The notes below the pieces were generated by a model. It made no database searches and had not been told where the DNA came from. It saw only the letters and a program-made list of their open reading frames with translations. From positions 1 to 23,302 of the IMG/VR virus record IMGVR_UViG_3300044641_006060: a DNA stretch of 23,302 nt, one strand, 5' to 3'. Source of the DNA: a virus. Below, piece after piece: positions 5,218-22,353 of this stretch. Position numbers and translations under genes: made by a program. Each line of letters begins with the position of its first letter. Position 1 is the stretch's first letter.

Positions 5218-5562
5218 ATGGAAATATTTAGACACGAAGAAAAATTTTTAGAGAACCTATCCAAGATCAGTGATCAGTTCTTTTCTATGGTTTTGATTAC
5301 AGACGGACACGGGTTATCACCATCAGAATTAAAAACTAAACCAAAGTTTACTGAGTTTTTTTCTGATTCGGTACAGTATTCTGATGGAACAAGTCATTTA
5401 GATTCTATATATGTCTTCGATGATGACATTTACATATATTTATCAAAGAGTGATCCTACAATCTCTTCTTTTTCTTGTAAAATTTATTATCCTATAAGAA
5501 AGAAAAAAGATGTAGAGTTCTTTATATTAAACTTAAAAAAAATGAAAAAAAATGGAAATTAG
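5218..5562 (+). CDS. Hypothetical protein, 114 aa
   Basis: The frame is open from 5200, but that ATG lies inside the terminator hairpin, so I choose ATG 5218. The product starts MEIFRHEEKFLENLSKISDQ. It is a small soluble protein with a hydrophobic core (FFSMVLITDGHG), Ser/Asp-rich middle and lysine-rich C-terminus (KMKKNGN). No family is recognised. It overlaps the thioredoxin gene by 11 nt, so translation is likely coupled to it. It could be a partner of the redox pair, but nothing in the sequence proves it. Confidence 0.65.
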   Translation: MEIFRHEEKFLENLSKISDQFFSMVLITDGHGLSPSELKTKPKFTEFFSDSVQYSDGTSHLDSIYVFDDDIYIYLSKSDPTISSFSCKIYYPIRKKKDVEFFILNLKKMKKNGN

Positions 5563-5866
5563 TAGTGTTGAATTACAACAAAAAATTAACGGAGGAGAAA
5601 AGTTGATGGTTGAATTTTGGGCTGAATGGTGTGGTCCATGTAAAATGATGAAACCAATCTTTGAAAAAGTTGCATCTACAAACCAATCAGATGTTAAGAT
5701 GTATACATTGAATATTGATAATAATCGTGAGGTTGCAATGTCTTTAGGTATCAGAAGTATTCCTACAGTAAAAATGTTTAATGCTGGACAAGTGGTTGAA
5801 ACTAAAATTGGTTTATTGAGTGAGAATCAAATAAACGAACTAGTAACAGAATTGATCAATGGATAA
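5552..5866 (+). CDS. trxA: Thioredoxin
   Basis: Full-length thioredoxin (104 aa; the family is about 105). The active site WCGPCK is at residues 26-31 and the cis-proline motif SIPT at 69-72, followed by a final beta strand and helix. All core features needed for dithiol-disulfide exchange are present. Known phage thioredoxins supply electrons to ribonucleotide reductase or act as polymerase processivity factors; neither partner lies in this window. It overlaps the upstream gene by 11 nt and the glutaredoxin-like gene by 8 nt. The three genes thus form one coupled unit ending at the palindromic terminator at 6152. Confidence 0.92.
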   Translation: MEISSVELQQKINGGEKLMVEFWAEWCGPCKMMKPIFEKVASTNQSDVKMYTLNIDNNREVAMSLGIRSIPTVKMFNAGQVVETKIGLLSENQINELVTELING

Positions 5867-6146
5867 GTTGGCAGTGCTTTTCACAATGAAGAGTTGTCCT
5901 CATTGTCAAGATTTTAAAAAAATGTTAGATGAGGCAGAATTAGATTATCTCGAAAGAGACATCTATGAATATGAAGAAGAATATGAAATGTTTATCGAAG
6001 CAACAGGAAACGAGTTTGTACCGGCATTCATGTTAATTGAGAATCCTGAAAGTGAAGAACCCATTACAGGTTTGTATGCTCCTGATCGAGACTTTGAAGA
6101 TATGGATCAAGGATTGAATATAATTAAAGAGTTCTACGAAAGATAA
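5859..6146 (+). CDS. Glutaredoxin-like protein
   Basis: A 95-aa thioredoxin-fold protein with CPHC at residues 13-16 after the first beta strand (LAVLFTMKS) and a VP pair at 54-55 in the position of the glutaredoxin TVP cis-proline. CPHC replaces the usual CPYC of glutaredoxin. A very acidic helix (YEYEEEYEMF) follows the second strand. It is probably a dithiol reductase working with the adjacent thioredoxin, for example for ribonucleotide reductase. The start overlaps the thioredoxin end by 8 nt. Assignment to glutaredoxin rather than a generic thioredoxin-fold oxidoreductase rests on length and motif. Confidence 0.85.
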   Translation: MDKLAVLFTMKSCPHCQDFKKMLDEAELDYLERDIYEYEEEYEMFIEATGNEFVPAFMLIENPESEEPITGLYAPDRDFEDMDQGLNIIKEFYER

Positions 6147-6151
6147 ATAAA

Positions 6152-6177
6152 AAAACCCCTCGATATCGAGGGGTTTT
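6152..6177. terminator. Bidirectional terminator, 26-bp perfect palindrome
   Basis: AAAACCCCTCGAT followed by its exact reverse complement, with A and T tracts on both sides. It lies between convergent genes (glutaredoxin on + and the minus-strand gene ending at 6181) and can act in both directions. Confidence 0.9.
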
Positions 6178-6180
6178 CTT

Positions 6181-6876
6181 TTATAGTAATATTATGTCTT
6201 TTAGTCTATCTTGAACCAAGTATGGTTTGTTTAATGTCTGATCGGTTATATCTTTTGTAAAATCGTAGTTAGATAGTCTTTCTTTAAACTCAGTAAGGTC
6301 CATATCAAAACAATCTAAAACAAGACTCTCAATGGTTTTCTTAGGAACTTGAGAATCGCACAGTACTTTAATTCTATAATCCTCATCTTCATTAAGTTCA
6401 TTTGAGTAATGAAAGTATATTTTATCAACACCTAACAAAGAGTACATTTGATTAAAGATATAGTGGGAGTAATATATAATTCCTCTTCCACACCCTAAAC
6501 TGTGACCATAAGGAAACTCTGATGAAATGTTTATTTCTGAAATGGGATCAAACTCATTAACATATAAAGATTTATTAACTTTGATCCATGCTCTTGGAAA
6601 ATCTGTAATTTCTTGATCATACTTAATAATGTCAATAATGTTTAGATCTTCTTTTTTGAGTGAACTGAATAATTCTTTGTTTGATTCTATAAACTCTGTT
6701 TTCAGATCGTTCAAAGTTAAAACATCTTTACTTGTTGTTTGACCGTTAACAACTACAAAGGTTTCAAAATCTGTAACTTGGATAATTGTATTTTCTTTTT
6801 TGTTGAATTTTGACAGGATGTAGTCTGCGAATAGATTCACAAAATACCGTCTTGTGTTTTTTTCTAATTTTCTCAT
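6181..6876 (-). CDS. Possible shortened S-adenosylmethionine synthetase-like protein, 231 aa
   Basis: Two parts resemble MetK by layout. Residues 34-60 (VTDFETFVVVNGQTTSKDVL) match the ET-V-VVxGxxTTS pattern of the MetK N-terminal domain. Residues around 128-190 (RGIIYYSHYIFNQMYSLLGV onwards, through KTIESLVLDCFDMDLTEF) match the MetK C-terminal order RSAAY-ARYIA, a strand, an IxV strand, and a helix ending in FD(L). Real MetK is about 380-400 aa. The central domain and the GHPDK and GxFxxGGPxGD motifs are not visible, so catalytic activity is doubtful. It may be a regulatory or divergent homologue. The gene is the last of the minus-strand island; a weak octamer variant CTATTTAT lies about 40 nt upstream. 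The gene is certain, the relation moderate. Confidence 0.45.
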   Translation of the reverse strand: MRKLEKNTRRYFVNLFADYILSKFNKKENTIIQVTDFETFVVVNGQTTSKDVLTLNDLKTEFIESNKELFSSLKKEDLNIIDIIKYDQEITDFPRAWIKVNKSLYVNEFDPISEINISSEFPYGHSLGCGRGIIYYSHYIFNQMYSLLGVDKIYFHYSNELNEDEDYRIKVLCDSQVPKKTIESLVLDCFDMDLTEFKERLSNYDFTKDITDQTLNKPYLVQDRLKDIILL

Positions 6877-6925: not shown

Positions 6926-8035
6926 TTAGATGTATTCAGGAAACATTTCGTTGATGTTTTTCTGTGTTAGAGAGTAATCTGGATAATCTGGAAGTCTTAC
7001 ATCAATACACTCAAGTACTCCATCGTTTATTAAACCTATCAAAAACTCATTATAAGTGCCGTAATATTCTAAAAATGAATCACTATAAGTACTACCTTTA
7101 TTATTCTCTAAAAAATTTTTAATTTCTTTTACAAAATCTCTAATTTTTATGTAATGGAAATAACGAGTTTTTCCATCTCTTTCTATTGGAACCTCATCTA
7201 TCTTACCTTCAAAAAATTCATCTAAACCACCGTAAATGGCTTCATAAATTTCTTGTTCATATGCTTGGTTTTCAGCATTATAATAAATACTTCTTAGTTC
7301 TCTACCAATCTCTTCTAAATCATTACTAAATAATTCATTAGTTGCGTCAACATCTTTTAATAAATCATTTAGATCTTCAGGTCTTATTCTAAAATAACCT
7401 GGTGTATTTTGTTCTTCCGATAAATCTTCAAAAAAGTCAGAATTATAGTCATCTAAAGATAACTCAGCGTTACCAATTTCTTTGTAAACAACATCTTTAA
7501 GTTTGATATAGTTTGCGTCATCCAATTCAGTTACTGTCTCATATGGTTTAGCGTCACTATCATAATAACCATAATCTAAACCTTCCTCACTGAATATTTG
7601 TTCGGCAATATGTCTTACACCTTCCCTTCTTCCACTACTCCCACAATAAAAGTTCGCTAACTCTTCTCTACCCCTTAGATATAAATAAAAACCACCATTT
7701 CTAATTTCAACATCGGTTAATAAATTATTTATAATAAAAAGAATTGTACCTTCATAGTCTTCATCTAATTTACGAAGTAGAAGAACATTTTTTAATTCAT
7801 CAGGTGCGGCATCATAACTAAGGTTATTTAAGACACCATTTTCATCTAAGAAGTCTAAGATTTCTTCATCCCAATTACGATAACCTACTTGACCTAAATC
7901 TAATTCATCTAAAAGACCGTATTTTTTAACAAACTTAAAGAATGTAATTAAGTTATTAAAATACGGTTCAATGTCGTCATCAAAATCACCATAATTAAAT
8001 GAATTAACTAATTGTCTTGCTCTATCTAAACTCAT
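6926..8035 (-). CDS. Acidic hypothetical protein, 369 aa
   Basis: The frame is open eight codons further, to 8059, but the ATG at 8035 has an exact ATATTTAT 5 nt upstream that would lie inside the longer version. I therefore start at MSLDRARQLVNSFNYGDFDD. The protein is acidic and rich in Tyr, Asn and Asp, mostly helical, with no transmembrane segment. Notable segments are FYLYLRGREELANFYCGSSG near the middle and a C-terminal PDYPDYSLTQKNINEMFPEY. Its composition resembles the plus-strand protein at 8369, but I see no clear alignment. Family unknown. It lies upstream of the MetK-like gene on the same strand, separated by 49 nt. Confidence 0.8.
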   Translation of the reverse strand: MSLDRARQLVNSFNYGDFDDDIEPYFNNLITFFKFVKKYGLLDELDLGQVGYRNWDEEILDFLDENGVLNNLSYDAAPDELKNVLLLRKLDEDYEGTILFIINNLLTDVEIRNGGFYLYLRGREELANFYCGSSGRREGVRHIAEQIFSEEGLDYGYYDSDAKPYETVTELDDANYIKLKDVVYKEIGNAELSLDDYNSDFFEDLSEEQNTPGYFRIRPEDLNDLLKDVDATNELFSNDLEEIGRELRSIYYNAENQAYEQEIYEAIYGGLDEFFEGKIDEVPIERDGKTRYFHYIKIRDFVKEIKNFLENNKGSTYSDSFLEYYGTYNEFLIGLINDGVLECIDVRLPDYPDYSLTQKNINEMFPEYI

Positions 8036-8057: not shown

Positions 8058-8085
8058 AAAAAAGGTGTCCCAATCGGAACACCTT
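8058..8085 (-). terminator. Terminator of the MGCGC gene (minus strand)
   Basis: On the minus strand a stem AAGGTGT/ACACCTT (8079-8085 with 8062-8068), with one C-A mismatch and two further GC pairs, is followed by six T residues (8063-8058). It ends the small minus-strand gene just before the octamer of the next one. Confidence 0.75.
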
Positions 8086-8105
8086 ATCTTGATGATACGA
8101 AAATA

Positions 8106-8261
8106 TTATCTTCTGTAATATTTGTTAATTACTTTTTTTACATTCTCTTGAACATTGGACTTAACCTGAGTGGCGTTACCACCAGCTTGAGTTTGTGCTT
8201 GTTGAGCCTGTTGAGCTTGTTGTATCTGTTGATTAGTTTTGTTTTTACATCCGCAACCCAT
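8106..8261 (-). CDS. Small MGCGC Gln/Ala-repeat protein, 51 aa
   Basis: A clean 51-codon frame lies between an upstream octamer (8293) and a downstream terminator (8085). The product begins MGCGCKNKTNQQIQQAQQAQ. It then has a QQA-repeat stretch (residues 11-25), a GGNATQV linker and an amphipathic basic helix ending KKVINKYYRR. The two N-terminal cysteines could bind metal or be modified; there is no lipoprotein signal. I do not recognise a family with a known function. Own promoter and terminator make it an independent transcription unit, which supports a real gene despite its size. Confidence 0.7.
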   Translation of the reverse strand: MGCGCKNKTNQQIQQAQQAQQAQTQAGGNATQVKSNVQENVKKVINKYYRR

Positions 8262-8292
8262 GATAGTTATTTTTAAGTGGTTTATTTTATCT

Positions 8293-10510: not shown

Positions 10511-10693
10511 ATGGGATTCAACAAGAGAATTTTAAAGAAAGAAAACATTCTAAATAATCTTCCAAAACTTATGACCTATTTAAACGCCGATGCAATTATT
10601 TGTACCGACGATTTTTCACGCAAAGTTTATAGGTTATTTACCGAAGGTTTTAGTGAAGAAGAAATAATAAATATAATAAATAAAATTAAATGA
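10511..10693 (+). CDS. Hypothetical protein, 60 aa
   Basis: Starts MGFNKRILKKENILNNLPKL, with a basic N-terminus, a short central part (DAIICTDDFSRKVYRLF) and a C-terminal helix (SEEEIINIINKIK). No family recognised. It overlaps the glutamine synthetase start by 4 nt (ATGA), so the two are translationally coupled. It could be a small regulator or partner of the synthetase, but that is speculation from position only. Confidence 0.65.
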   Translation: MGFNKRILKKENILNNLPKLMTYLNADAIICTDDFSRKVYRLFTEGFSEEEIINIINKIK

Positions 10694-11823
10694 AAATTAA
10701 GTTGGAATATGTTTGGTTAGACGGATATAAACCTGAACCAAACCTAAGAAGTAAAGTTAAGATTGTAACATATGAATCCATTAAGAATGCGTTTCTTGAT
10801 GGTAAATTCCCAATGTGGAACTTTGATGGATCATCAACTTCACAGGCAGAAACAGGAAACTCAGATCGTCTTTTAAAACCTGTAAGACATTACATGCCTT
10901 CGACATTCCCATTAGAAAATAATACCGTGTATGTTTTGTGTGAGGTATTAAACCCTGACGGAACTCCACACGAATCAAATAAAAGAGCTGGTATTGGTGA
11001 AAATTTTGAAGATCTTTGGTTTGGATTTGAACAAGAGTATTTCATTCGTGAAGAAGTTAATGGAAACATTTTGGGACACAAGAGAAACATCCTTAAAGGT
11101 CAGGGTGAATATTACTGTGGTGTTGGACACAATGTTGTTGGTCGTGAGTTTGTTGACGAACATTTAAATATGTGTTTGAACTATGGGATTGATATCACTG
11201 GTATTAATGCTGAGGTTGCTTTGGGTCAATGGGAATATCAAGTGTTCTCTCAAGGTAAATTAAAAGGTGGAGACGATCTTTGGATAACGAGATATTTCTT
11301 ATTAAAGATTGCTGAAAAGTATGGTTACCATATTGAACTTCACCCAAAACCAATCACACACGGAGAGTGGAATGGTTCAGGTCTTCACACAAACTTCTCA
11401 ACAGATATAATGAGACTTGAAGGGAATGAACAATATTTCATGGCATTATTTAATGCATTTGAATCAAGACATGAAGATCATATCAAAGCTTACGGATCAA
11501 ACAATCACTTACGATTGACAGGTGAATATGAAACTCAAGCAATTGATAAGTTTAGTTGGGGTGTATCTGATCGTGGAGCGTCAATTAGAGTTCCTCAGGA
11601 CACGGCAAAAGAATGGAAAGGATATGTTGAAGATCGTAGACCAGGTTCAAATGCCGATCCATACAAAATCATTCGTGAGATTGTTAATTCCCTTTATGTT
11701 GCTCAACTTCTTTATGATACAAAAAATATGATGACCTCATTTGTAGATATGGATGGTCTTACTGGAAAATACGGTACAATGTCTAACGATGAGTTATTAA
11801 AAGAATATAGAGAAGAAGAATAA
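10690..11823 (+). CDS. glnII: Glutamine synthetase type II (eukaryote-like)
   Basis: Makes glutamine from glutamate, ammonia and ATP. The 377-aa length fits GSII rather than the roughly 470-aa GSI. The beta-Grasp motif WNFDGSST is at residues 43-50. The metal-binding pair in FEQEYF is at 113-118 (E114, E116), YYCGVG at 141-146, ALGQWEYQ at 177-184 and NGSGLHTN at 228-235. The nucleotide/Arg region SDRGASIRVP and the final EDRRPGSNADPY follow. No key residue appears missing, so it is probably active. It overlaps the 60-aa gene by 4 nt and DUF3310 by 1 nt. No promoter lies directly upstream; transcription probably comes from about 9600. GSII in a phage is unusual and suggests acquisition from a bacterium. 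Confidence 0.92.
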   Translation: MKIKLEYVWLDGYKPEPNLRSKVKIVTYESIKNAFLDGKFPMWNFDGSSTSQAETGNSDRLLKPVRHYMPSTFPLENNTVYVLCEVLNPDGTPHESNKRAGIGENFEDLWFGFEQEYFIREEVNGNILGHKRNILKGQGEYYCGVGHNVVGREFVDEHLNMCLNYGIDITGINAEVALGQWEYQVFSQGKLKGGDDLWITRYFLLKIAEKYGYHIELHPKPITHGEWNGSGLHTNFSTDIMRLEGNEQYFMALFNAFESRHEDHIKAYGSNNHLRLTGEYETQAIDKFSWGVSDRGASIRVPQDTAKEWKGYVEDRRPGSNADPYKIIREIVNSLYVAQLLYDTKNMMTSFVDMDGLTGKYGTMSNDELLKEYREEE

Positions 11824-13085: not shown

Positions 13086-13937
13086 ATGATAGAAACAGGA
13101 AAAATTATTAACGGAGACTGTATTGAGGTAATGAAAACTTTACCTGAGGGATCTGTGGATTTAGTGGTCACATCACCACCATACGGAGTAGGAATTGATT
13201 ACGATGTTCATGAGGACGATGTTGAGTTTACCGAATACCTTGAATTTGCAAAGTCTTGGTTATCTGAGGTATACCGATTATTAAAAGATGATGGTCGTAT
13301 TGCTTTGAATATCCCTTACGAAATTAACAGACAAAAAAAAGGTGGTCGTATTTTCTTTGTATCAGAGATGTGGCAGATCATGAAACAAATAGGATTTGGG
13401 TTCTTCGGTATTGTGGATTTAGAAGAACAATCACCACATAGAAGTAAGACAACAGCTTGGGGATCTTGGATGAGTCCGTCAAGTCCTTATATCTATAACC
13501 CTAAGGAGTGTGTAATTTTGGCATACAAAAAACAACACATCAAAAAAATCAAAGGTCAACCACAATGGACTGGAGAATCAACTGAAATTGAAAAAGAAGA
13601 TGGATCAAAAAGAAATAAAATGGTCTATGACGAGAATGATAAGAAAGAATTTATGGAACTTGTGTTTGGTCAGTGGAATTACTTTGCAGATACTAAATCA
13701 CTCACCAAGGCAACTTTCTCGATGGACATACCAACCAAAGCGATCAAGATATTGTCCTACAAGAACGATGTAGTCTTAGATCCGTTCTGTGGTAGTGGTA
13801 CATCCGTAGTGGCAGCCGAAATATTAGATCGTAGATGGTTAGGTATTGAATTAAGCCCAAACTATTGTGATGTTGCAAGAGGACGAGTTCAAACCTTTGT
13901 CGATGAAAAGAAACAAGTTAAAATAGAGTTAATTTAA
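13086..13937 (+). CDS. DNA methyltransferase (N4-cytosine or N6-adenine)
   Basis: A 283-aa SAM-dependent amino-methyltransferase of the class with motif IV before motif I. TSPPYGVG starts at residue 29 (catalytic SPPY) and DPFCGSGT is at 232-239 near the C-terminus (SAM binding), followed by GIELSPNYCDVARGRV. TSPPY is common in m4C enzymes but also found in m6A enzymes of this order, so the base is undecided. No restriction endonuclease gene is adjacent, so it is an orphan enzyme. A likely role is protection from host restriction or marking phage DNA. The stop overlaps the convergent DUF192 gene by 4 nt. Confidence 0.9.
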   Translation: MIETGKIINGDCIEVMKTLPEGSVDLVVTSPPYGVGIDYDVHEDDVEFTEYLEFAKSWLSEVYRLLKDDGRIALNIPYEINRQKKGGRIFFVSEMWQIMKQIGFGFFGIVDLEEQSPHRSKTTAWGSWMSPSSPYIYNPKECVILAYKKQHIKKIKGQPQWTGESTEIEKEDGSKRNKMVYDENDKKEFMELVFGQWNYFADTKSLTKATFSMDIPTKAIKILSYKNDVVLDPFCGSGTSVVAAEILDRRWLGIELSPNYCDVARGRVQTFVDEKKQVKIELI

Positions 13938-15866: not shown

Positions 15867-16715
15867 ATGAGAAATAAATTAAATTTAAAAGAAGGAGAAG
15901 TCCAAAGAATCTTATCATTACATAAAAATGCTATATTAAAAGAGAGTGGTAAAAACATTTTGAATGAGGAAAGTACTTTTACTTTAAAATCAGATGTAAA
16001 ATTCAAACCTAGCGAAACGAATCCGTCTTCTAACAAAATAAGGTTATACCAAGGAACTAAGTTCAAAGTATCCACAAAAATTAAAAATTCATTAGTATCC
16101 ACAAGAAAAGTTCTTGCAAATTTTCCTTCTTATGCTTCTGGATACCTTTCTACAAGTTATGAAGATAATAGGGCTTTTGTTGTATATAACTGTAAAACAA
16201 AAAATATTTATTTAATTGGATCTACAAATGAAGGAGCTAAAGAAGACTATGACATTAACTCTAATAAAAAGGCTACTTGGAAAACTGGAGGAAGTATGCA
16301 ATCTTTAGATAAATTGTGTGAAGAATCGGTTGTTAAAAATCAAGAGGTTATCAAACCAGAACAGAAGAAACTAACAGATGATGAAAAAATTAAAAAGGCT
16401 AAAGCATGTGGACATAAAACTTGGGAAGATTATCAAGCATCAGGATGGAAATGTAAAAAAGAAAACCAAGGAGGAGAAACTGGAGATTTAAGAAATGGGA
16501 CTAGTAGTAACAGATACACATTCGATTTCGAAACAATTATGAAAGCCATTGACGATACAGGTAAATGCCCAAGAAGTGGAACAAGCGATCAAGCAGGTAC
16601 TTCAGGAACGAGTGGAGTACAAGGAACTCAAGGTACAAGTAATGTTGGGGCTCCTGTTGTAATACAAAAACCAACTGTAACAAAAGATGACTTCTATCAA
16701 TGGACAATGGATTAA
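15867..16715 (+). CDS. Tagged tandem-duplicate protein, copy A, 282 aa
   Basis: Starts MRNKLNLKEGEVQRILSLHK, followed by AILKESGKNILNEE with two [LI]xE-type sites, after which the mature part begins. Residues 37-160 form a beta-rich domain (FKPSETNPSSNKIRLYQGTK, AFVVYNCKTKNIYLIG). Residues 177-202 are a Cys-containing block (KACGHKTWEDYQASGWKCKK) also present in copy B. The C-terminus has TGKCPRSGTS, a GTSGTSG-type low-complexity repeat, and the end KDDFYQWTMD. No enzyme motif is seen. With the peptidoglycan-binding-like gene just upstream, a virion or cell-surface role is plausible. It is paralogous to the gene 12 nt downstream. Confidence 0.75.
   Translation: MRNKLNLKEGEVQRILSLHKNAILKESGKNILNEESTFTLKSDVKFKPSETNPSSNKIRLYQGTKFKVSTKIKNSLVSTRKVLANFPSYASGYLSTSYEDNRAFVVYNCKTKNIYLIGSTNEGAKEDYDINSNKKATWKTGGSMQSLDKLCEESVVKNQEVIKPEQKKLTDDEKIKKAKACGHKTWEDYQASGWKCKKENQGGETGDLRNGTSSNRYTFDFETIMKAIDDTGKCPRSGTSDQAGTSGTSGVQGTQGTSNVGAPVVIQKPTVTKDDFYQWTMD
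16395..16466 (+). repeat. 72-nt direct repeat, copy A (second copy 17237-17308)
   Basis: The segment encoding the ACGHKTW..DYQASGWKCKKEN block is nearly identical in the two neighbouring genes, differing at two positions by my count. Flanking coding regions differ strongly, which points to recombination or selective retention. Confidence 0.8.
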
Positions 16716-16725
16716 ATTTTAAAAA
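16548..16725 (+). repeat. 178-nt direct repeat, copy A (second copy 17384-17570)
   Basis: The 3' ends of both paralogous genes, from the TGKCPRSGTS region through the stop and into the noncoding ATTTTAAAAA, are almost identical. I count five substitutions and one 9-nt indel in the GTSGT repeat. Identity continues past the stop codon, indicating duplication or conversion at DNA level. Confidence 0.85.
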
Positions 16726-16726
16726 A

Positions 16727-17560
16727 ATGAGAAATAAATTAAATTTAAAAGAAGGGGAAGTCCAAAGAATATTGGGCTTACACAAACAAGCTATTTTAAA
16801 AGAAAATAATTATCAAGTATTGAATGAAGAACAAACATTTTCTCTAAAAGTTAATACAGATTTTAAACCATCAAGTAGTAATAGCGAGGATTACACTCTT
16901 AGACTTTATAGAGGTACAACATTTAAACCATCACCAAATATAAAAAATTCTTTAGTCACAGATAGACAAGTAAGAATTGATTATGTGTATGGTATGTTTA
17001 ATTCTACTGCTGGTGCTTCCGGACTTAATAATAAGGCTTTTGTGGTTTATAATTGTAAGACAAAAAGAATGTATACCGTCCAAAATACAAAAATAGATGA
17101 GTTTGATTATAAAAAAACAAATTGGACATATGATGCTAAGAATATGAGGTCCTTAGATAACTTGTGTTTAAATGCTGTTGAGACGGTAAAACCTGAGGTT
17201 GTGGTAAAACCTAAAACGGATGATGAAAAAAAAGAAAAGGCTAAAGCATGTGGACATAAAACTTGGAAAGATTATCAAGCATCTGGATGGAAATGTAAAA
17301 AAGAAAACAAAAAAAATACATTTCTTGCTGCCGGAACAAGTGGAACTAGATACTCATTTGATTTTGAGACAATAATGAAGGCAATTGACGATACAGGTAA
17401 ATGTCCAAGAAGTGGAACAAGCGATCAAGCAGGTACTTCAGTAACGAGTGGAGTACAAGGAACTAGTGGAACTCAAGGTACAAGTGGTGTTGGTGCTCCT
17501 GTTGTAATACAAAAACCAACTGTAACAAAAGATGACTTCTATCAATGGACAATGGATTAA
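16727..17560 (+). CDS. Tagged tandem-duplicate protein, copy B, 277 aa
   Basis: The frame is open from 16700, but ATG 16727 aligns exactly with the start of copy A. The product begins MRNKLNLKEGEVQRILGLHK and contains AILKE and VLNEE sites. The first 44 nt differ from copy A at one position. The central beta domain has diverged (DFKPSSSNSEDYTLRLYRGT; AFVVYNCKTKRMYTV). The Cys block and the GTSGT-rich C-terminus are nearly identical. A strong terminator follows. Function is unknown; divergent centres with conserved ends suggest exchangeable specificity modules. Confidence 0.75.
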   Translation: MRNKLNLKEGEVQRILGLHKQAILKENNYQVLNEEQTFSLKVNTDFKPSSSNSEDYTLRLYRGTTFKPSPNIKNSLVTDRQVRIDYVYGMFNSTAGASGLNNKAFVVYNCKTKRMYTVQNTKIDEFDYKKTNWTYDAKNMRSLDNLCLNAVETVKPEVVVKPKTDDEKKEKAKACGHKTWKDYQASGWKCKKENKKNTFLAAGTSGTRYSFDFETIMKAIDDTGKCPRSGTSDQAGTSVTSGVQGTSGTQGTSGVGAPVVIQKPTVTKDDFYQWTMD

Positions 17561-20328: not shown

Positions 20329-20487
20329 TAATCTAAAGTTATAGTTTGCTCAATATATGGGGTCTATTAACAACTAATCTCAATTATATTAGTATTTATT
20401 TGTGAACTCAACCTGCCCGTGGAATATGGGGGTTTCCTAAAAAGATTCTTCAAGAGAGTAAATAATTTTATTTTATTTATTTTTACT

Positions 20488-22353
20488 ATGAAGAATATAT
20501 TGATTGTATTTTTTGTCCTATTTTCATCTTTTTTATTTTCTCAATCATGTCTTCACACTATTCAACGAACTGACACATGGGGTGATGGTTGGAATGGAGG
20601 AGCGGTATCCGTTTCTGTTAATGGTGTAACCGTTTTATCTAATTTAAGTTGTGTGGGGTACGGACCTACTAGTTCTACATTTATGGCGGCAGTAGGGTCA
20701 ACAATTAGAGTATTCCGAACCACTGCAGGACTTTATCCTACAGAAATGCGCATACGAGTTCTCAATGGTGCGGGAACCACCATAATCAATACTATTCAAC
20801 CGGTTGCTGGAACCGCAACTACGGGAGGACAAACCGTATTAGCAAGTTGTGCGGGAGCTGTTGCAGGTCCATGCACTAATACAACTTTATATGGGTCTGC
20901 AATCGCACCATCAACACCAACAACTGTAATCATTAGTACTTGTCAATTTCAAGGAGAATATAGTCCAATTTATTCTTGTATTGCAGGACAAACATATCAA
21001 TCAGCTTACAATTTAGGTGGATTCATAACGGTTAGATCAGGAACATTTAATGGTACTGTAGTCGCCAGCGGAAACGCCCCATTAAATTGGGTTTGTCCGT
21101 CCTCAGGAACATATTTCGTTCATTACAACACAAATAATACTTGTGGTACCGCTATGAACTGCGGAACATCATCTATTTCTTGTATAACTTGTTTACCACC
21201 ACCACCACCATCAAATGATTTAGTTTGTAATGCAACAACAATATCTTGTGGTCAGACGATTGCAGGGACTACGGTTAATGCAACAACATCAGGTTATGGA
21301 GAATTGGGGTCTTGTGGTATTGTTCAGTCATATCCCGGTGTTTGGTATAAGATAATAGGAAATGGACAGATTATGACGGCATCACTTTGTGTTACCGCAT
21401 GGGATAGTAAGATTTCTGTTTTTTCAGGAACCTGTTATTCACTTACATGTGTTGGTGGTAATGATGATAACGGACCTGGTTGTGGGGGAACTTCAGCATC
21501 ATACTCTTGGAACTCGGTTAATGGGACAACATATTGGATTTTAGTTCATGGTTATTCATCAAACTCTGCGTTTTCCGTGTCTTTAAATTGTGTTAATCCA
21601 CCAACACCAGGACCATGTACAAACACAATAAATTATGGAGCTCAATTTATGCCTGTGTTAGGTGGAGCACCATATGAATCTATTTATTGTCAATACGCTG
21701 GAGAATACTCAACATGGTATAATGCAATTTCAAATACACCTTATGTTGCAACTTCTTCAGTTGGAACAGATTGGATTACGGTTAGACAAGGGACTTACAA
21801 TGGTACGGTTCTTGCAACAGGAACGGCAGTTGTTAATTTCACACCAAACGCCACAGGAACAATATTTATTCATGTTAACACAAATGCTTATTGTGACATC
21901 CAATCAAGTTGTAGGGATGTTGCAATGTCAAGAATATCTGCATTACCTATTGAGTTATTATATCTTGAAGGTAATAAAGAAAGTAATTATAATTTAATAA
22001 GATGGGCAACTGCGACTGAACATAATACCAGTCATTTTATTGTTGAAAAAAGTGAAGATGGACATGAATGGAATTCAATAGGTGAAGTTCAGGCTTCACA
22101 AAACTCCACTCAAGAAATTAAATACAATTTAATTGATCAAAATGTAAAACAATTATACAATTATTATCGTCTTAAACAATATGATATAGACGGGATGAAT
22201 CAAACTTACGGGCCAATTCAGATCAATAATACTGATAAAGTAATTACCGTAATAAAAAGAATTAACTTAGCAGGACAAGAAGTTAATGAAAACACCACAG
22301 GAGTTGTTATTGAAATTTATAGTGACGGATCTATAAAAAGAACAATAAAATAA
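20488..22353 (+). CDS. Large secreted multidomain protein with T9SS-like C-terminus, 621 aa
   Basis: ATG 20488 gives a typical signal peptide (MKNILIVFFVLFSSFLFS|QS). The open frame continues upstream from GTG 20419, but that part has no function in export. Domain order: WGDGWNGG beta domain (about 20-125), CTNT-type domain (128-235), a PPPP linker, a PPC-like domain (242-371; WDSKISVFSGTC, CVGGNDDN), a second CTNT-type domain (376-484), then LPIELLYLEGNK...YYRLKQYDIDG (486-580) and a tail INLAGQEVNENTTGVVIEIY. The last two are characteristic of flavobacterial type IX secretion cargo. It has many paired cysteines. It is probably of host origin and may be exported through the host T9SS or serve as an adhesin; in a phage this is unusual. 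160 nt of AT-rich sequence precede it. Confidence 0.8.
   Translation: MKNILIVFFVLFSSFLFSQSCLHTIQRTDTWGDGWNGGAVSVSVNGVTVLSNLSCVGYGPTSSTFMAAVGSTIRVFRTTAGLYPTEMRIRVLNGAGTTIINTIQPVAGTATTGGQTVLASCAGAVAGPCTNTTLYGSAIAPSTPTTVIISTCQFQGEYSPIYSCIAGQTYQSAYNLGGFITVRSGTFNGTVVASGNAPLNWVCPSSGTYFVHYNTNNTCGTAMNCGTSSISCITCLPPPPPSNDLVCNATTISCGQTIAGTTVNATTSGYGELGSCGIVQSYPGVWYKIIGNGQIMTASLCVTAWDSKISVFSGTCYSLTCVGGNDDNGPGCGGTSASYSWNSVNGTTYWILVHGYSSNSAFSVSLNCVNPPTPGPCTNTINYGAQFMPVLGGAPYESIYCQYAGEYSTWYNAISNTPYVATSSVGTDWITVRQGTYNGTVLATGTAVVNFTPNATGTIFIHVNTNAYCDIQSSCRDVAMSRISALPIELLYLEGNKESNYNLIRWATATEHNTSHFIVEKSEDGHEWNSIGEVQASQNSTQEIKYNLIDQNVKQLYNYYRLKQYDIDGMNQTYGPIQINNTDKVITVIKRINLAGQEVNENTTGVVIEIYSDGSIKRTIK

Follow-up and report, generated by a model that had tools for sequence, protein, structure and literature searches.

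What is the 231-residue protein encoded at positions 6181 to 6876 (minus strand) of a 23,302-nucleotide stretch of phage DNA, here called the window (positions 1 to 23,302 of IMG/VR record IMGVR_UViG_3300044641_006060)? The original prediction, made from the letters alone, described it as a reduced relative of the S-adenosylmethionine (SAM) synthetase MetK, without the central domain and key loops of that enzyme. MetK is essential, and its fold is hardly known outside SAM synthesis. If many large phages keep MetK in a two-repeat form, this would show how a fold can be stripped and reused, and it could uncover a previously unseen way for phages to act on SAM or nucleotide metabolism.

A conserved phage gene

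The open reading frame has exactly the coordinates and strand first assigned to it and begins with ATG; its assignment as the gene of a MetK-fold protein draws on this frame, on its relatives, and on the predicted fold described below. Searches of IMG/VR phage contigs returned 35, 83, 175, 238, and then 286 stretches with relatives as the query alignment was broadened, counts in which one contig may recur among stretches. Among the gathered matches listed, 89 distinct relatives have at least 220 residues, 81 of them exactly 231, and the lowest identity to the window protein among the gathered relatives is 44%. The gene is under purifying selection (median dN/dS of 0.11 for 55 pairs of 11 sequences) and is present as a single copy in each of 12 large records (up to 304 kb). 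This widespread, unnamed phage protein is thus the product of a conserved gene, not a chance reading frame.

Searches of Pfam, NCBIfam, PHROGs, PADLOC, and the PDB sequences gave no significant match to the protein, the MetK profiles of Pfam and NCBIfam do not match it even at an E value of 10, and PF02773 is absent from the window's record. Among 50,697 phage records, tblastn found nothing for the window protein at an E value of 0.01 and nothing for a second family member (L101). For a divergent member (L346), a tblastn search of phages with E values up to 10 gave only partial matches, in 132 records; the lowest E value among the matches listed is 0.05, and several are tail-fibre subunits. 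In GTDB genome contigs, 44 stretches fit the search pattern and none of the 44 encodes a relative. An HMM search over 150,000 of the 160,410 bases of Flavobacterium phage immuto yielded no homologue (best E value of 0.32), and a literature search of titles and abstract openings, with bioRxiv and most subscription papers outside its scope, yielded no reduced MetK in phages.

Several candidates were set aside in the course of these searches. Weak Pfam matches (EF-G-binding_N, MmeI_N, RhoGAP-FF1, and others; E values of 0.02 or worse) and a capsid protein match in the PDB sequences (E value of 1.6) were dismissed as chance, and two pattern matches (L328 and L331) were dropped from the family as unrelated short reading frames.

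Predicted fold and sequence comparison with MetK

An AlphaFold2 model calculated with 78 family members has a mean pLDDT of 83 and a pTM of 0.81, with 204 of the 231 residues at a pLDDT of 70 or above; an earlier model from 21 close sequences was poor (pLDDT of 44). The structure prediction did not return a fold unrelated to MetK, the outcome named beforehand as counting against the original prediction: all matches listed are MetK/MAT chains. In a Foldseek comparison with the PDB, the best 50 entries are all MetK/MAT, with E values from 9.5e-05, and 27 PDB chains have E values of 0.001 or lower, but the TM-scores are low (0.27-0.34, rmsd of 13-17 Å). VIA-align, applied to Foldseek's 1000 best chains, likewise lists 50 of 50 entries as MetK/MAT, with Z-scores of 12.5-14.8 (7-8 being the tool's typical value for models without a clear match), rmsd values of 3.1-3.7 Å, and 193-218 aligned residues. 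The best match has a Z-score of 14.8 and superimposes 210 of the 231 residues at 3.2 Å. The aligned span runs from residue 1 or 2 of the model to residues 224-231 and, in the E. coli entries, from residue 8 to 381 of MetK, which is nearly the full chain; within this MetK range of approximately 374 residues, 210-214 are matched and approximately 160 are skipped. Because both ends match MetK while these approximately 160 residues are left out, one domain appears to be absent. The low Foldseek TM-scores can be reconciled with the good VIA-align fit, in which a gap is allowed, if that gap is large. A MetK-like fold is, from the model, highly likely.

In the model, a helix of residues 131-148 (RGIIYYSHYIFNQMYSLL; positions 6433 to 6486, minus strand), which the model and the profile alignment place as the counterpart of the MetK loop helix, precedes two strands (152-158 and 170-173) and the FD pair at 190-191. 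This is the helix/strand/FD order that had first suggested MetK, and it is real; F190 is present in 78 of 78 sequences and D191 in 56. The best structural match in BFVD (E value of 1.5e-10) is A0A6J5L9B3, an uncharacterised protein of 208 residues from an uncultured Caudovirales phage, with 26% identity over 186 columns. Judged by its model, this protein is probably a more distant family member that sequence searches missed.

Sequence profiles support the MetK-like fold weakly. Against a MetK profile built from the E. coli sequence and 86 others, the whole-profile match of the family is not significant (P of 0.1; 4 of 60 column-shuffled MetK profiles attain the real score), and a global hhalign comparison of the family with MetK gave nothing. 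Removal of the middle of the MetK profile raises the score only from 19.2 to approximately 21, with a reversed control at 17.1 or lower. The separate parts behave differently. Residues 14-62 of the family align to MetK 21-72 when MetK 1-100 is used (P of 0.02), and residues 130/131-213 align to MetK 272/273-354 when MetK 240-384 is used (P of 0.023), whereas MetK 101-239 has no counterpart in the family (P of 0.32). The N- and C-terminal alignments are collinear, in the order required by the structure. The proposed profile-profile comparison gave weak support for the two terminal parts and a non-significant match for the whole profile, and the suggestion of a reduced MetK relative without the central domain and key loops is supported by the predicted fold and the unmatched middle.

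Ungapped comparisons sharpen this picture at one site. When residues 119-140 of the family (SEFPYGHSLGCGRGIIYYSHYI) are slid along MetK, the best of 362 offsets sets them opposite the MetK catalytic loop and helix, residues 261-282, with a score of 9.4; the next offset scores 1.5. Two other stretches fit less neatly: for residues 14-33, the expected place in MetK ranked 4th of 364, and for residues 176-195, the preset start of 317 ranked 45th of 364, the best start being 320, which fits a short gap. Because the slide of residues 119-140 peaks at the MetK loop and the predicted fold matches MetK, the resemblance is more than chance. We infer common descent with MetK rather than convergence on its fold.

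Residue replacement and a candidate active site

Conservation was read from the 78-sequence family alignment (identity down to 44%), with 87 collected MetK sequences as the reference, in which 15 of 16 listed positions are constant in all 87 sequences and the other, F231, is present in 86. In MetK, they serve to hold methionine, ATP, the phosphates, and metal. In the HPDK motif, whose positions in the family come from continuing the local alignment outward with no gaps, H15 is replaced by Ser or Thr, D17 by an invariant arginine, R10, and K18 by Gly, Tyr, or Phe. In the catalytic loop, K266 corresponds to the invariant G124, K270 to residue 128 (Asn, Gly, Asp, or Ser), and D272 to the invariant G130; R273 is kept as R131, such that only Phe and Arg are retained from the MetK loop. 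By the collinear alignment, Q99, D119, K166, F231, and D239 fall in the stretch that is missing from the family. MetK E43 and E56 lie opposite E38, found in 52 of 78 sequences, and the variable Q46, a placement that depends on the alignment, and R245 and K246 would map near the model strand of residues 95-101, where the alignment is unreliable. With the HPDK motif, the two lysines of the loop, and its aspartate all replaced, it is very unlikely that the protein makes SAM as MetK does, and we regard the loss of this activity as highly probable.

What is conserved instead is distinct. At the site of the MetK catalytic loop, residues 119-131 (SEFPYGHSLGCGR; positions 6484 to 6522, minus strand; placed by the best of the 362 ungapped offsets) form a SEFPYGxSxxCGR loop in which S119, E120, F121, P122, Y123, G124, S126, C129, G130, and R131 are present in 78 of 78 sequences. 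The ET-V-VVxGxxTTS segment of the original prediction is present as residues 37-49 (FETFVVVNGQTTS; positions 6730 to 6768, minus strand), which the profiles set against MetK 42-60, the hairpin being shorter (P of 0.02 for the N-terminal half); F40 and G45 are invariant, S49 is found in 76 sequences and T47 and T48 in 74 each, and E38 is the exception, found in only 52 of 78. Residues 185-197 (LVLDCFDMDLTEF; positions 6286 to 6324, minus strand), the counterpart of MetK LVREFFDLRP in the profile alignment, contain L187, D188, F190, and F197 in 78 of 78 sequences. In total, 36 columns are invariant in the 78 sequences, many of them polar, including K6, R10, N14, D36, N79, D82, Y86, W97, Y135, Y136, N142, D188, D209, K217, Q222, D223, and the cysteine C129. 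Decay of the protein is rejected because of these 36 invariant columns, many polar, together with the median dN/dS of 0.11. That so many polar residues are kept points to a functional site, for which the SEFPYGxSxxCGR loop with its invariant cysteine, R10, D36, D82, D188, K217, and D223 are the candidate residues.

The best explanation, to which we give a probability of roughly one half, is that the protein would be a repurposed MetK-fold protein that has lost one domain and carries a pocket rebuilt for another ligand. It would be a remote relative of MetK with two of the three alpha/beta repeats, approximately 140 central residues having gone, together with the ATP-, phosphate-, and Mg-binding residues. 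The strictly conserved polar set around the SEFPYGxSxxCGR loop would take the place of the MetK site, and subunits might, as a guess, pair with each other through sheet faces, as in MetK. The rebuilt pocket may accommodate or convert another ligand, with nucleotides and derivatives of methionine or SAM as possible candidates, again a guess, and the protein would serve within the metabolic take-over cluster of the phage. That the rebuilt site works in the proposed manner is a tentative proposal, and that large environmental phages carry an enzyme family with a two-repeat MetK, a rebuilt active site, and a new reaction or ligand is rather speculative. Overall, the protein probably represents a new function on an old fold. 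The fold is so far hardly known apart from SAM synthesis, and a rebuilt-site enzyme, if true, would be a rare departure. For a family left blank by sequence searches, the model also supplies a fold that can be tested.

Genomic neighbourhood, rival explanations, and known systems

The gene lies in a conserved neighbourhood. The counts given here refer to a non-redundant set of 82 loci, each 10 kb or longer, which are cut at their ends, so that absences are partly edge effects. Two genes converge on the MetK-fold gene, a thioredoxin (positions 5552 to 5866, plus strand), present in 74 of the 82 loci, and a glutaredoxin (5859 to 6146, plus strand), present in 76, and further genes besides these neighbours are shared among the loci. 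A terminator-like hairpin with T runs on either side, detected on both strands, occupies positions 6149 to 6180, between the glutaredoxin and MetK-fold genes. Terminator-like sites number 3 observed versus 0.8 expected, and promoter-like sites near the gene are about as many as chance predicts (15 observed versus 15.5 expected); scans of the window for Rfam families and tRNAs found none. A short, glutamine-rich reading frame that starts with MGCGCKN lies at approximately 8062 to 8262 (minus strand), directly upstream of the unit that the MetK-fold gene forms with the gene at 6926 to 8035, and is followed by a terminator-like hairpin at 8085 to 8062.

Elsewhere in the window, a glutamine synthetase (Gln-synt_N and Gln-synt_C; 10690 to 11823, plus strand), an unusual nitrogen-metabolism gene for a phage, is present in 41 of the 82 loci. 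Frames that start at 114, 491, 1042, 15589, and 18720 (plus strand) carry a similar N-terminal motif (for example MKIIITEEQL, MKIIISDNQY, and MRNIVITENQL) on otherwise different proteins, as if it were a common leader or targeting segment. Two clearly related proteins in tandem (15867 to 16715 and 16700 to 17560, plus strand) both have MRNKLNLKEGEVQRIL close to the N-terminus and a tail rich in GTSGTSG, and are probably a duplication. A cysteine-rich protein of 644 residues is encoded at 20419 to 22353 (plus strand), and its end, which we take to resemble Bacteroidota surface or secreted proteins, offers a hint of the host. The hosts are probably Bacteroidota because the nearest isolated relatives of the neighbouring DUF932 (34.9% identity) and DUF3310 (67.6% identity) proteins of the window are those of 160-kb Flavobacterium phages (immuto).

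The main rival explanation, which takes up the modulation of host SAM suggested in the original prediction and which we consider unlikely, casts the protein as a MetK pseudo-enzyme: it would join the MetK subunits of the host and reduce or divert SAM production in infected cells. A MetK-like fold without one domain and the catalytic residues is what an inactive partner would look like, and T3 SAMase provides a precedent for phage attack on MetK (PMC8406200). The MetK domains PF02773 and PF00438 are absent from all 12 large records with the gene, and a DNA methyltransferase gene often lies nearby. In the window, a methyltransferase of the type II/orphan N6/N4 kind (13086 to 13937, plus strand) is 6.2 kb away and serves as context only; a PF01555 methyltransferase is encoded in 9 of the 12 large gene-bearing records and in none of the other 3, and lies approximately 6-8 kb from the MetK-fold gene in 7 of the 12, all figures for records that are possibly fragments. 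The tie between the two proteins is circumstantial, and the nearby methyltransferase fits a SAM-related role without proving one. It also argues against the inactive partner: low SAM would harm the phage's own methyltransferase, and a DNA-methylating phage would gain nothing from the removal of SAM. Moreover, the rebuilt pocket loop is the most conserved part of the protein, an invariance that an interface with a host enzyme would not need, and there is no measurable sequence resemblance to any MetK surface.

It is improbable that the likeness to MetK is convergent or an artefact of the model and that the gene encodes an alpha/beta phage protein with no kinship to MetK, such as a structural protein or one that binds nucleic acids. 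The fold comes from prediction, the Foldseek TM-scores are low, no sequence match is significant, and the whole-profile P is 0.1, but all structural matches listed are MetK, with Z-scores reaching 14.8 across almost the entire chain, well above the level typical without a clear match, and the weak sequence matches keep the same order and places.

A two-gene module with a function unrelated to SAM is more improbable still. The upstream gene (6926 to 8035, minus strand; ATG start, with a TTG start possible at 8059) is adjacent, runs in the same direction, and accompanies the MetK-fold gene in 79 of the 82 loci, but its product is far more variable, with identities down to 26%, belongs to no known family, has no known relative, and found no credible match in a PDB profile search. 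Finally, the idea of a pared-down MetK that still makes SAM or one of its analogues, to which the predicted fold and the frequency of full-length MetK genes in phages (E. coli MetK has matches in 136 of 50,697 phage records) lend some appeal, is very improbable given the replacement of H15, D17, K18, K266, K270, and D272, the missing stretch with Q99, D119, K166, F231, and D239, and the lack of any MetK profile match.

The repurposed MetK-fold protein can be compared with three known systems. T3 SAMase is described in PMC8406200 as a SAM lyase that also inhibits E. coli MAT, binding to the enzyme and building filaments, and its fold as barrel-like, with nine antiparallel strands and two outer helices. 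The likeness is at most one of the proposed target pathway, and the model of the 231-residue protein is MetK-like instead; no SAMase chain is among the structural matches listed (best 50 in Foldseek and 50 in VIA-align), which does not by itself exclude that family. Full-length MetK of phages, as in Streptococcus prophages and Microcystis phage Mel-JY01, shares with it the presence of a MetK fold in a phage genome. In tblastn, 120 of the 136 records cover at least 80% of E. coli MetK, whereas the 231-residue protein matches no MetK profile and has no hit in those 136 records. The protein is not classed as a member of MetK (PF00438, PF02772, and PF02773) because size, profile match, the HPDK motif, and the loop lysines, when tested, all spoke against membership. 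It resembles MetK in the predicted fold over 193-218 residues, in the order of secondary structure elements, in the conserved arginine that opens the loop helix, and in the FD of a later helix. It differs from MetK in having 231 rather than approximately 384 residues, in lacking one domain and any profile match, and in the replacement of the catalytic residues alongside an invariant SEFPYGxSxxCGR loop.
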